From positions 1 to 64,000 of the forward strand of contig JAFREE010000037.1 in the NCBI GenBank assembly GCA_019400425.1: a stretch of 64,000 nucleotides of DNA. Reading direction: 5' to 3'. The notes beneath the pieces are model-generated. The model was not told the DNA's origin. It did not search any database and was given only the letters and a program-made list of their open reading frames with translations. A program made the translations under genes and the position numbers. The stretch is from Hymenochaete sp. R1 (taxonomy: Eukaryota; Basidiomycota; Agaricomycetes; Hymenochaetales; Hymenochaetaceae). Below are positions 14,031 through 52,636 of this stretch, in pieces (the stretch's first letter is position 1; every line of letters begins with the position of its first letter).

Positions 14031-14669
14031 TCAGAATCTTTGAGCAAACCAGGTTCGGTGCAATTGTCGGTCACTTGCTACCAGTCGAATATCATCAAGG
14101 CGCATCAAAACGCGTAGATAGTCCCTGAGAAGTAGAGTCAGTCAGACTGTCATAACAAACTAAAGAAAAACAAAATCAGAGGTGTCAAATTCTGGAGCAC
14201 GCCTCGACTGCAAGCAGTCAAGTATACTCCCTGAAGAAATTCAATCACAGAAAGAATGGCATCATAGACGAGAGATTTGAGCCGGGTAGAAGGACATACC
14301 AAGATAACGCATCGCAGATTTCTGTTTCGCAGCCCAACAACGAGAAAAAAAGTCTGCAAAGGCAGAAGGACAGCAAAAAATTGAGATTGCGCCGACCAAG
14401 AGTAAGCCCCATTCCGTTCTGACCATCGTTCTTCTCAACGAAGGAAACGACATTGGTCGCGATCGCATAACTGCATTCATGAGCAACAAGGATGTCAAGT
14501 CGCTTACAGTGCGCCAGGTTTGGAAAGCAAAGTCGAAGGCTCGTTTCTTCGCCTCGACAGAGCCCTGGCGTACAAGGACCAACGTGTAGAGGGCACGCGG
14601 TGGGAGCTCGACGGTTGCCTTTAGTAGGCCAAAGAACATCGAGCAGGGCCATTCCGAGGTTTCAACCAT
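14031..14669 (-). CDS. Possible membrane protein, model unresolved
   Basis: Two stretches look coding on the minus strand. The first starts at ATG 14669 (MVETSEWPCSMFFGLLKATV) and reaches a good donor GTAAGC at 14506. The last exon, about 14127-14031, encodes DYLRVLMRLDDIRLVASDRQ and ends in WFAQRF. Between them lie hydrophobic segments such as WGLLLVGAISIFCCPSAFAD. I could not find a splice set that joins all three in frame, so the middle is uncertain. The family is not recognised. It could equally be an unspliced 135-residue frame (14669-14262) or chance. Confidence 0.3.
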
Positions 14670-15067
14670 CCCCTCACACTGCTTTGCTTAGATGCAGCGG
14701 CTTTCCGATGGGGGACGGGGCTGCGAACAGGAAACCCTCTACAGAGACCTCCGGGGACTTTCCCCGCAGCCAAAGGGGAGCAGGAGCTGGGCGAGCCGAC
14801 TCGACTGCTTGCGTGAGCTGCGAAAGCGATCCTTTGGACGGCGCTGTGGATCGAAGTCTTTGGTTTGTGATGAAGGGTAAGAATGGGAGAAAAATTCGTG
14901 GAAAGTAGAATATTATTTAGGGCAGGTTCTTCGATTTCTTTTGGCACGTGATTCTGACACGGCGCTGTGGCCGTGCTGCTTGCTCTTACAGCCAGCTTAC
15001 TCAAGTACCACATTGTTCAGCATCTCTTGCATCCCTGTTTTCCTTCATTTACATTCCCTTGTCAACC
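14670..15067. promoter_or_regulatory. Divergent upstream region
   Basis: Lies between the doubtful minus-strand gene and the twin CX3C gene. CACGTG is at 14945-14950, 123 bp before the start at 15068. Open frames here are shadows with no motif. Confidence 0.35.
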
Positions 15068-47963: not shown

Positions 47964-50900
47964 ATGCGCTCGAAAAGCGTCTCAGCGACAAATATTGCCG
48001 TTCACCATCATCTTCAGTGCGACCTCTACCTTTATAATACGTACCACGGAGCTGCAACATTCAACGGTCCAGACAAGGTTAATTCAAAGTCTCGGAATGG
48101 ACAACTCACACTCTCGGAGACGGCGAAGGCTACCATGACTCGGGGCAACGACTGGGAAGCCAGCTTGCTGAGATGGCTCGATGAGAAAAACCTCCTGGTG
48201 CGAGTTCTTTGCAGCCGACTCGAAGGCCCAGAGATACAAGATCTCATCATGATTGAACTCGATGGGGGAAGGGAGCACTTTTTTTTAGCTGGTCTAGTGT
48301 TCGCGCCTCCCGCTGAGGCTTTCAAGGCTCGATTCCGCGAGAGCGGGGAAGAACCTGTGCAGTTCGGCATTGCGAAGCCTGACCTAGTGGAGATCAAACG
48401 AGATCAGGATGGAATAATACTTTGGAGGGTTATAGATGCGAAGTCTTCTGTAAATGTTAAGGTGCGGTTGTGTATACTATCGTATCGGTTCTTGAATGAC
48501 TGAAGAACCTCTTGTGAAGACGTCGCACCATGTTCAGATATACTTTTATCACCTTTGTCTTGAGCATATACTTCCTCAGCCCGCTTTCAAACCCTTGGGG
48601 ACATCAGCCGTTTGGGTCCCTCCAACTTTCTATGGTGCTACTCCCAAACCCTCTCTAGACGGTTTAAAGTCCATTGCTACACCTTTGTTAGCGCTTCCTC
48701 TGGATACATTTTTCTTTAGCAAGCTCCCTCAAATCTTGACATCGGACAAGAAGAACGTGAAATGGCATTTCAATCCTCTGTGCTCCGGTTGCCCCTTTGA
48801 GAACGAGTGCAGACGGGATGCGACACAGAAGGGCGAATTGGGAGCTATGGCGAATATCTCCATTCTCGATGCCGAAGTCCTTAGGTCTTTTCTCGCGGTG
48901 TCGGATGTTCGAAAACTGGCTTCGTCGTCAACAGATATTGAAGACCTGTACCAAACCATCTCTTCAGCTCCAGAAATGGCTCGGTTGGAATATCGACACC
49001 CCTCTATGACCAAGAAAGCGAAAAAGATACTAAAGGTCAAGGGCACTCGGAGTCCCCTCGTTGATGCAGCGCGTACTAAGCAAGTTCAGGTGAGGAATAT
49101 AGGTGTAATTAAAGGTGAATTAGTCTGATACTCTCTGACTCGAAGGTCTTGAAGAAACGGACGTCGATGCTCCCACGCGAAGAAGACATAGCCATTGTCA
49201 TCTCTCTGTTGCTGGACCCTGCGGACAATGGAATTGCGGCGTACTGCATCTCAGCTTTCTTCAAACCCAATTATTTTCCCTTGCCCTGGGTTGCCTCAGG
49301 AAAGTCGGAAACTCTCGTCGAAGACTTATCGACAATCATACAGCACATTCTCGACATGAATGATATCCAAGACGTACCCCCACGGACGCAAACGTATATT
49401 TTCTCTGAAGCAGAAAGAGAAGCCTTGCAGCGAACGCTAATTGAAGTAGCCTTGACGAGTGACCCTCTTGATGATTTTCAGGACAAGGTTCGTCTGTGCA
49501 TTGGTGCACTTTGTGAGGGGGCATCGTTATTAGCAACATCTTTTCAACCCCTTGTCCTGTCAGGCGCTCTGCTTGATTTCCTGGGTACCAAGGTTGGACT
49601 CTCAACAACAGACTTACAGGAATGTTGCAGGCGCCTGGGTTTGCCTTTTCGTTCTGGATCTGACGAGGATCTTAGAGGGCGAATAAGGGACGAACTTGCG
49701 CGATTGCGCAAGGTTACAGGTTATAGCTCGGATACGAATTCGGAGTCCAGTAATGTAACAGAAAATAGACCTGACTTGCATTGTCGCTCAGAAATTGGAC
49801 GACTACCGCGCGTGGTTGTTATCAAGAATGCAATCGACCAACTTCTCGCGCTACCGCTTCCAGGGTATTGGGGTCTGCAACAGTGTTGTGCAGCTTTGCA
49901 GACCAACGAAGCCGAGTCGTGTCCTTCGAGCGATACTATTTATTCAGCTTTCGTATCAAACCAGACCGAGGAAATGAGCCGGCTATTGGAGACAAGTACA
50001 AAATGCACATACGACGTTGTAACTAAAACACGAGACGTGGCCAATCGTGTCACAGAGAAAATGAGCGACATGTTCCTCAATGATGCTCGAATATTAACTT
50101 CTGAGTTCATGGATATATGCCGCCAGGATCGTCTACGCAAACTCTTTTTCATGCAACAGGTAAGCTCGTTATTTCGTCGACTCGTCACTCATTAATAGGC
50201 CCATGTGTAGTTTGAAGCTCTAGCCAAGCTAAATGTTTTATGGCACGACAGGATAGAAGGTTGCTATGATGCTCCTCGGATGGAATATTGCCATTCGACA
50301 TACTCAAAAGAAATGGGATACCTTCATACATTTACTCTACATTCCGGTTACGTCGACTTGGCTGGCGAGAAAGAGAGATCATATTTTGGTTATATCCTAA
50401 CTGAAGACAGTGACTCGGAATCCGAGGTCCCAGTTGAAGCACTTTTCGATGACTTGGCTGTCTTCAACCTCGTCTTCCCTCTTAATAGGTATATTCGCAG
50501 CCGTTGGTTATCGCAGCATATCCGAGTTCAACGAGAGCTTTTCGTTGCAGATGTGCAAGAAATGAATGTACGAGATTTCAAAACTTTCGTCATTCTGAGG
50601 ACGTACGGGAATCCGAGTTTACGATTCAGACACGATACGACGTATCGCCTATCCCCCCGATTTGTGGACTTCAATATTACAAAGATTCTCAGTGCACTCG
50701 TGGAGATGGATCTCGATACCCCATCCCATCCGGGTTACATGCTCCTTCATCCCTTTTTACAACTTTTTACCGATCCGAGAGCATTTGCGAAGCTTTCGAA
50801 TGATACAGATATAACTGTTCGGTATGTTGAGAAAGAAAAGGGAATCCAGCGAAGCTTGAGAGAACTAAGCAACCTTGATCATTCATCGGCCCGTTCATTG

Positions 50901-52636
50901 CTGTTTAAGCCATCCCAACATCAAGCCCTCGATCGGATGTTGAAGAATCGCCTTGCTGTCATATGGGGCCCACCTGGTAGGTTAATTCTAGTCGCTTTCC
51001 TTCCGAAAATACGGGCTTAAACGACGCACAGGAACTGGGAAGACATACACCATTGCTTTGTCTCTTTTAAGGCTAATTCAGATTAGGTCAGCCTGTGGGA
51101 TAGTTGGCCAACAGCTAATTTTCCTGACGGCGATGACTCATGCGGCCATAGAAGCTTGCCTCTCAAAGTTGGACTCTTTGATGAAAGATTATCATCACTG
51201 TGGATCGTTGGGCATGGACACGGCCTGGCTGCAGAAGATAAGGCTTGAACGCGTAACGTCTGGCGCACTTCATGCTCCGCCATCTAAACAGGATGAAACA
51301 TATATTTATGCCGGAACAGTTTATCAGGTACCGTAAGACATTTCATGGAAGCAATCGTAACGATATTTACGCTTATTCTGTAGCTGTTTTCCTTCTCAAA
51401 GAAGCGTAAGTTAAAGGCAGACTATGTCGTCATTGACGAAGCCGGTCAATTGGGCCTAGGTCCGGCTTCTTTGGTCCTGAAAGCGCTGCAAGCTGACGGC
51501 AAAGTTATTGTGGCAGGAGACTCAGAACAACTGGCTCCGATTTTAACTTCGCAATACCCTCAAACGGAGGCACAATTATTTGGTTCAATATTGGACTGCC
51601 TTATGGCGAAATTAGCAAAGGAGGACAAGACTGCGAATTTGTCTATCTCTCCTCTATCCATTACCGGGACAGAGTCATCAATGGAAAGTACGGTTGTCCA
51701 GTTAACGGAGAACTTTAGGCTCAATCCTGATCTCGGAGACTTCATCTCTACCATTTACAAGCGTTCTTTTGCTCCGCAGAAAACTCAAGCCGTCAAAGTA
51801 GCCAGACTCCTCCAGAGGCTCGACCAAGTTGAGGGCAACGATAATAATTTCCTACAGGCAAGAAGAATATTGTTGGGTCTTTCTGCCGCAATGCGCCGAA
51901 AACCTCAGGATGTATTGGACGAACCAAAGTTCAAGGACAAGCAGCCATCCGCTGTCCCTGAGCTTGATACACGTGCTATATCATTGGCTCTAATACGGTT
52001 AGACACAATATCATTGGAGCCAGACCAGCTAGGCTACGAGGTTCATGTTAGAGCCGAAGCTCTATTCGCGGCGACTTTGGTCCAATTGCTTCAGAAAGCT
52101 GCACCAGACGAAACGATATTTGTAGCAACACCGCATCGAGTTCAACGTCAAGCTGTAAAAGATGCACTTTTGACATCGACCCTATCGTCCTCGTCCGTAG
52201 ATGATTTAACAGCTGCTCTCAGTTCCCTGCAACTGGGTAGTGGAAATGCCGGAGCGGAGATCCAAAATGTAACGGTCGATACGATCGAAAGACTGCAGGG
52301 TATATGCATTTTGCGTATGTGATGCTGTTCGCTTTTGATATATCAATTACAGGCTCTGAGGCTGCATTCGTAATATGCCTGTTTTCGCACACATACGGCG
52401 GGAACGCCAATCTGGCCGTCGACTTCCTCCTTGAGAGGAGGCGACTTAACGTCGCCATTAGTAGATCAAAGCAGTTGTGCATCCTCATCTCATCCAAGGC
52501 CGTCCTCCGCCCCTCAATAAGAGTCTTATCTAATCAGCGCACTGCAAAAGGGTTTGCATTTCTAAAGGCATTCGAAGATCGAGCTTGGTCTACGACTGCG
52601 ACAGTCGACCTCGATAGCTTCATAGATAGTGTCTAA
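47964..52636 (+). CDS. Cas4/RecB-like nuclease fused to SF1 helicase
   Basis: Model join(47964..48461,48520..49089,49146..50159,50211..50976,51032..51327,51384..52299,52353..52636), 1447 residues, all phases consistent. Nuclease, residues 1-270: Cys19 in LQCDLYLY, Asp140 in KPDLVE, Asp158/Lys160 in VIDAKSS (PD-(D/E)XK), Gln172/Tyr176 (QxxxY, RecB motif), and Cys254, Cys257, Cys263 in CSGCPFENEC, completing a four-Cys Fe-S site. Residues about 360-930 match no domain I know. Helicase, about 930-1447: Walker A GPPGTGKT (Lys953, split by an intron), Walker B VVIDEAG (1063-1069), VAGDSEQLAP (motif III), LTENFR, VDTIERLQGSEA (V), VAISRSK (VI). It resembles bacterial TM0106-type nuclease-helicases more than Dna2: the nuclease is at the extreme N-terminus and the linker is long. 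Likely processes DNA (or RNA) ends. Catalytically intact by motifs. Confidence 0.88.

Follow-up and report, generated by a model that had tools for sequence, protein, structure and literature searches.

The gene at positions 47964..52636 of the window, as we call the whole stretch of 64,000 nucleotides of Hymenochaete sp. R1 DNA that was analysed (contig JAFREE010000037.1), encodes a protein whose parts are ordinary and whose place is new, since by sequence comparison it represents an old, second fungal nuclease-helicase of Cas4-DEDD-SF1B type. In eukaryotes, the role of nuclease-helicase is generally attributed to Dna2. We consider it probable that the fungal protein, which has prokaryotic relatives, shares the mechanics of Bad and Dna2 and serves in DNA maintenance beside Dna2, most likely in the nucleus.

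Gene structure and domain architecture

The gene is intact. Splicing out six GT-AG introns of 51-58 nt each leads to exactly 1447 residues with the end at 52636, in full agreement with the initial annotation, which had described a single chain of this length joining a nuclease to an SF1 helicase. The following features were assigned:

47964..52636, plus strand: whole gene, 7 exons, 1447 residues (splice model and full-length match to Sanghuangporus baumii)
47964-48461, 48520-49089, 49146-50159 and 50211-50976, plus strand: exons 1-4 (splice model)
51032-51327, 51384-52299 and 52353-52636, plus strand: exons 5-7 (splice model)
50977-51031, plus strand: intron 4, inside Walker A between GPPG and TGK (splice model), where homologous gene models often stop
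47964..48837, plus strand: Cas4/RecB-type Fe-S ("iron staple") nuclease, residues 1-272, with intron 48462-48519 within
49173..50054, plus strand: middle domain, residues ~366-659, predicted DEDD-type exonuclease fold with its catalytic acids replaced
50055..50903, plus strand: linker and pre-helicase region, residues ~660-925, with intron 50160-50210 within (predicted strands and helices; conserved positions in the family alignment)
50904..52636, plus strand: SF1B (Dna2/Upf1-type) helicase, residues 926-1447 and stop (Pfam AAA_11/AAA_12, PDB sequence match, residue audit)

When intron 4 is left unspliced, an in-frame stop is reached at 51018-51020. Of the 84 basidiomycete-type gene models, at least 16 terminate at this intron, within Walker A (WGPP), and eight at intron 5 (51328-51383); such models may reflect an annotation habit or, alternatively, real intron retention that would yield a nuclease product lacking a functional motor. 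Elsewhere in the window, an RNase MRP RNA gene is located at 14390-14844 on the minus strand (83.3 bits vs. a gathering score of 50).

Pfam places PDDEXK_1 at residues 105-264 (25.5 bits, cut-off 22) and AAA_11, AAA_19, AAA_30 and AAA_12 between residues 927 and 1402. The domain ends leave about 650-660 residues between nuclease and helicase, close to the gap of about 650 residues originally proposed, and the Fe-S cysteines 19, 254, 257 and 263 as well as the RecB/Cas4 motif residues are found where the initial annotation had put them. With four cysteines and the RecB-family motif residues present, the nuclease belongs to the iron-staple class (Cas4, AddB, Dna2), its cluster being a predicted one. 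The helicase is assigned to SF1B (Dna2/Upf1 type) on the basis of motifs I, II, III, IV, V and VI, all of which are present, the characteristic strings being GPPGTGKT (K953), DEAGQ (D1066/E1067), GDSEQLAP (Q1097), ENFRLN (R1160), ERLQGSE (Q1353) and NVAISRSK (R1391).

With regard to the middle part, about 290 residues of the predicted structure model as a DEDD-exonuclease fold, an assignment made with VIA-align over Foldseek's own top chains, while plain Foldseek with the N-terminal model gave no matches at E 0.001 or better. In a profile alignment, S376 and L378 occupy the D and E positions of the TM0106 protein P0092; the third DEDD acid (D) is replaced by a hydrophobic residue and the fourth is poorly aligned. 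The domain is probably inactive as an exonuclease and, going by the model, is the counterpart of the RNase_H_2 domain in TM0106 proteins. It had escaped the initial annotation. Two further candidate features were tried and rejected, i.e., a SAP domain in the middle part (SAP_new25 at 511-538, E 0.098; in the family, SAP in 1 of 19 with a best E of 0.012 and SAP_new25 in 2 of 19) and a PCNA-binding motif, the pattern of which is present in one out of 11 family proteins. Strings resembling nuclear localization signals are detected by a simple pattern in only five out of 11 family proteins, which counts against a nuclear location.

The fungal family and its prokaryotic relatives

Among the matches listed, the closest to the window protein stem from Sanghuangporus baumii (58% full-length identity), Coniferiporia (57%) and Rickenella (51%). 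Sanghuangporus likewise belongs to Hymenochaetales. Further relatives are P0060 of Coprinopsis cinerea and P0034 of Pleurotus ostreatus. The protein search returned 84 matches. Of these, 78 have E values no higher than 6e-165, and the next match is at 5e-13. The 78 comprise 76 proteins with basidiomycete names and two without a name (P0041, P0074), and in 46 of them a single aligned block starts no later than residue 25 and reaches at least residue 1423. Six more basidiomycete proteins and one from Benjaminiella poitrasii (2e-57) were found by profile search, and a search starting from the latter gave 66 matches, 65 of which are family members of Mucoromycota type. In these searches the candidates sharing most words were scored (7991 and 7993 in the basidiomycete-type searches, 5232 in the Benjaminiella search), so that the relatives found amount to at least 84 of basidiomycete type and at least 65 of Mucoromycota type. 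The named members of the second type belong to Mucorales, Umbelopsis, Glomeromycotina, Mortierellales and Jimgerdemannia; the placement of Linnemannia was checked. No yeast relative occurs among the matches listed, a statement that does not imply absence from Ascomycota, animals or plants.

The basidiomycete profile matches all 22 chosen Mucoromycota-type proteins in the nuclease, the helicase and parts of the middle. In the residue audit, gapped sequences were counted separately. Every non-gapped sequence among the 84 basidiomycete-type proteins keeps the nuclease residues except for C263 in two cases (73 C, R in P0048, H in P0069), and the same applies to the 65 Mucoromycota-type proteins except for two cysteines in P0113. 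The Walker A lysine is retained in 67 of 70 non-gapped basidiomycete-type and 53 of 54 non-gapped Mucoromycota-type proteins, and the four exceptions (P0064, P0066, P0071 and P0155) are short gene models.

A full-length tree of 31 fungal and five prokaryotic-type proteins (columns filled in less than 80% of rows removed, supports taken from the unrooted tree) separates Basidiomycota (100) from Mucoromycota-type fungi (100). Mixia is placed outside the Agaricomycetes (support 69) with Serendipita next (100), while Mucorales plus Umbelopsis, Glomeromycotina and Mortierellales each group together. As the tree follows the fungal groups, the gene appears to be old, and the pattern agrees with inheritance from a common ancestor. 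For some species two family proteins are listed, e.g., P0024 and P0044 for Mycena indigotica, P0039 and P0078 for Galerina marginata, and P0125 and P0128 for Zychaea mexicana, and the family is therefore not strictly single copy everywhere. In their source records the members are named "hypothetical protein", after general domains, or "Tripartite DNA replication factor", which is a Dna2 name. The last is found on ten entries (P0134, P0144, P0156, P0157, P0159-P0161, P0163, P0164 and P0166), four of which were confirmed as family by the basidiomycete profile.

A profile of 42 fungal proteins matches ten relatives at E 7e-84 over 1133 columns with about 17% identity, eight of the ten stemming from named prokaryotic records and two (P0082, P0167) being unnamed, and it matches 13 TM0106-type proteins at E 9e-48. 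For the prokaryotic profiles, 8 and 10 locus rows were hand-picked from the best 45 of 1187 ORFs, with L039 and other nuclease-less ORFs left out, and the same best 45 provided the 25 hand-picked locus rows of a 45-row helicase tree (columns filled in less than 70% of rows removed; re-rooted support labels may sit one branch off). In this tree the fungal family constitutes one clade that adjoins the Lachnospiraceae protein L048 and falls into a wider group with Chlorohelix, Aphanothece, haloarchaeal and Lokiarchaeota proteins. By the full-length profile match as well as by its position among the helicases, the family belongs to a prokaryotic Cas4-DEDD-like-SF1B group (L002, L037, L048, P0082). 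A scan of the genome contigs with P0082 as single query confirmed nothing. In metagenome proteins of about 1770 residues, namely P0079 and, going by its listed Pfam domains, P0081, an SF2 helicase of BREX/Lhr-like type shares one chain with a Cas4-like nuclease and the SF1B motor.

The layout had originally been compared with that of bacterial TM0106-type proteins. This likeness holds at the level of profiles (E 9e-48), but the TIGR03491 model is not listed for the window protein at E up to 1 (curated cut-off 97.45 bits) and the nearest relatives in the tree constitute another prokaryotic group (E 7e-84); a sister relationship with TM0106 is not favoured by the tree and not rejected by the AU test (p 0.107). 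The notion of an acquired system is unproved. If the gene is of prokaryotic origin, the tree would date its arrival before the split between Basidiomycota and Mucoromycota-type fungi. That the family has been overlooked is borne out as far as the open-licence literature goes (most subscription journals lie outside it): no paper describing it was found there by title or abstract start, and the term "TM0106" occurred in two papers, which by their titles deal with corrosion. Other prokaryotic Cas4-helicase fusions (PMC5704561) and YprA/DpdJ systems (PMC12458937) have been discussed, and the fungal proteins are not named in the available text of either paper.

Gene neighbourhoods and proposed function

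Restriction, defence or repair-type genes lie near seven of the nine prokaryotic loci examined:

L003: restriction endonuclease nearby
L004: helicase with MrfA zinc domain and RNase_H_2 protein nearby
L005: SacI-type endonuclease and Dcm nearby
L006, 5995-14648: Dpd genes; the motor resides in the DpdJ N-terminus and the nuclease part is an adjacent separate protein of 771 residues
L007, 5617-14459: two-gene arrangement as in L006, DpdJ being the sole Dpd gene
L037, 73-11765 (Aphanothece): relative between Cas12k and a Mu-type transposase, adjoining a Schlafen AlbA_2 protein
L054, 5300-14009 (Lokiarchaeota metagenome-assembled genome): relative followed by Metallophos and SMC_N genes, read as Mre11/Rad50-like

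No such neighbours were found at L002 and L048, the latter being located among ordinary genes. The TM0106 locus L008 contains genes annotated as DNA repair exonuclease and double-strand-break ATPase. Owing to its position between Cas12k and the transposase, the L037 relative may be cargo of a CRISPR-associated transposon. For the protein combining nuclease and middle part in L006 and L007, PADLOC gave no match in either locus; in L006 it also lacks a Pfam match and has only a sub-threshold match to TIGR03491. It may represent an unlisted Dpd component.

By analogy with Dna2 and Bad, the window protein would load on a single-stranded 5' end, its SF1B motor would move 5' to 3', and the Fe-S nuclease would cut the strand near the motor, resulting in 5' flap trimming or end resection as in these two enzymes. 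The dead exonuclease domain would hold or read DNA or a partner, and dead domains play such roles in Pol alpha and AddB. For this explanation as a whole speak the intact gene, the conserved catalytic and cluster residues and the lack of a second copy in the genome. The preference for DNA rather than RNA as the likely substrate is based on the relatives.

Several prokaryotic relatives reside beside restriction or defence genes, so that defence can be argued for as much as maintenance. The fungal protein could then be a genome-defence enzyme that has retained a prokaryotic task, the destruction of single-stranded DNA that is unmodified, foreign or displaced, e.g., transposon intermediates or viral DNA, a possibility that we take seriously while regarding it as the less likely one. 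It draws on the endonucleases and Dcm at L003 and L005, the DpdJ arrangements at L006 and L007 and the Cas12k and transposase genes around L037, and also on the gene for Bad, which lies beside a Type III-like methyltransferase according to the available text of PMC7430649. On the other hand, a single copy and a tree that follows fungal groups are less usual for defence genes, and the relatives L054 and L048 are situated among repair-type and ordinary genes, respectively. Maintenance is therefore favoured by the one copy here and the old descent, defence by the neighbours of the relatives. More tentatively still, fungi might have acquired a nuclease-helicase of prokaryotic immunity before Basidiomycota and Mucoromycota separated, and it would still act in defence at the DNA level against transposons or DNA viruses, the dead exonuclease serving as target reader.

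An RNA surveillance or R-loop factor, in which a Upf1-like motor would act on RNA and the nuclease would cut RNA or hybrid DNA, appears improbable. In a weak AlphaFold model of the helicase half (P0070; pLDDT 67.3, pTM 0.42), the core is about equally similar to Dna2 and to Upf1, Ighmbp2, Sen1 and Aquarius, with scores tied among Dna2, Aquarius and Ighmbp2; as the model is weak and the matches are tied, it was not used for the choice between DNA and RNA. Beyond this broad similarity between the motor and Upf1-type helicases, nothing was found in favour of RNA surveillance. Studied members of the Cas4/RecB nuclease class cut DNA. The nuclease belongs to this class (for its DNA-cutting members see the available text of PMC5704561), and the prokaryotic relatives adjoin DNA-modification and repair-type genes.

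We give even less credence to the window gene being a duplicate of fungal Dna2 with an added long middle part. The Cys pattern of Dna2 matches that of the window protein, the order of nuclease and helicase is common to both, the best PDB sequence match is DNA2 (5eax, residues 926-1105), and ten entries from the Mucoromycota search bear the name discussed above. The initial annotation had nevertheless held the protein to be distinct from Dna2, and this view is upheld. The Hymenochaete genome (27.8 Mb, 336 contigs) contains a separate Dna2, with the nuclease domain at G000:C333:6008-6586 (157 bits) followed by a helicase on the same strand, as well as a separate Exo5 at G000:C276; a genome search with P0001 recovered the window gene and one weak helicase match and no second copy. 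HMM search of the protein finds PDDEXK_1 and AAA_11/AAA_12, PF08696 (Dna2 nuclease) is not among the 19 Pfam families obtained at E up to 1, and PF09810 (Exo5) has no match in the same listing. In the 45-row helicase tree the organism's own Dna2 is found away from the family, which groups with prokaryotic proteins, and the middle domain matches prokaryotic proteins, too. The AU test rejects grouping the family with its own Dna2 (p 0.0003; one Dna2 row, partial with 248 of 457 alignment columns) and with five sampled eukaryotic SF1B rows (p 2e-5); long branches weaken the tree, and the 457-column helicase alignment, from which columns filled in less than 60% of rows were removed, is based on a profile for which family members and their relatives, but no Dna2, were used. 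The least likely explanation is a decaying leftover without function, as hinted at by gapped or short gene models among the relatives, against which stand the intact frame here and the active-site residues kept across both fungal groups.

If a large share of the fungi have an old, conserved and unnamed second nuclease-helicase, yeast would not be a sufficient guide to how mushrooms resect DNA ends and process flaps. Many mushrooms and some distantly related moulds carry this second protein, and it may offer them a so far unexplored route for dealing with broken or foreign DNA. In addition, the family suggests which fold the central region of a prokaryotic enzyme class may have and ties that class to eukaryotes.

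Comparison with known systems

Dna2 shares with the window protein the combination of an Fe-S nuclease and an SF1B motor, and the mechanics are likely similar, whereas the two differ in helicase clade and are encoded by separate genes in the same genome. TM0106 proteins resemble it in uniting nuclease, RNase_H_2 (DEDD) domain and SF1B helicase in one chain (P0092) and differ in that their DEDD acids are intact rather than replaced. The prokaryotic relatives, i.e., Chlorohelix WP_341472082 (L002), Aphanothece L037, Lachnospiraceae L048, the metagenome protein P0082 and L004, a haloarchaeal "bifunctional RecB family nuclease/DEAD/DEAH box helicase", have the same three parts by full-length profile and are nearest in the helicase tree, and the same four cysteines are present in five aligned prokaryotic relatives. 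In contrast to these, the fungal genes contain introns, and unlike the fungal gene, L006 and L007 have the parts divided over two genes.

Bad from Geobacillus stearothermophilus, as described in the available text of PMC7430649, is an Fe-S protein with single-stranded DNA endonuclease activity, a 5'-3' translocase and helicase that prefers 5' overhangs. According to its authors, the central domain of Bad is without known relative and absent from eukaryotic Dna2 (PMC7430649). Bad and the window protein have in common an N-terminal Fe-S nuclease, a conserved middle, likened here by description, and a C-terminal SF1B helicase; they differ in length (1245 vs. 1447 residues) and in the distance from nuclease to motor, which is 665 residues between D150 and K815 in Bad and 795 between D158 and K953 in the window protein (PMC7430649, available text).
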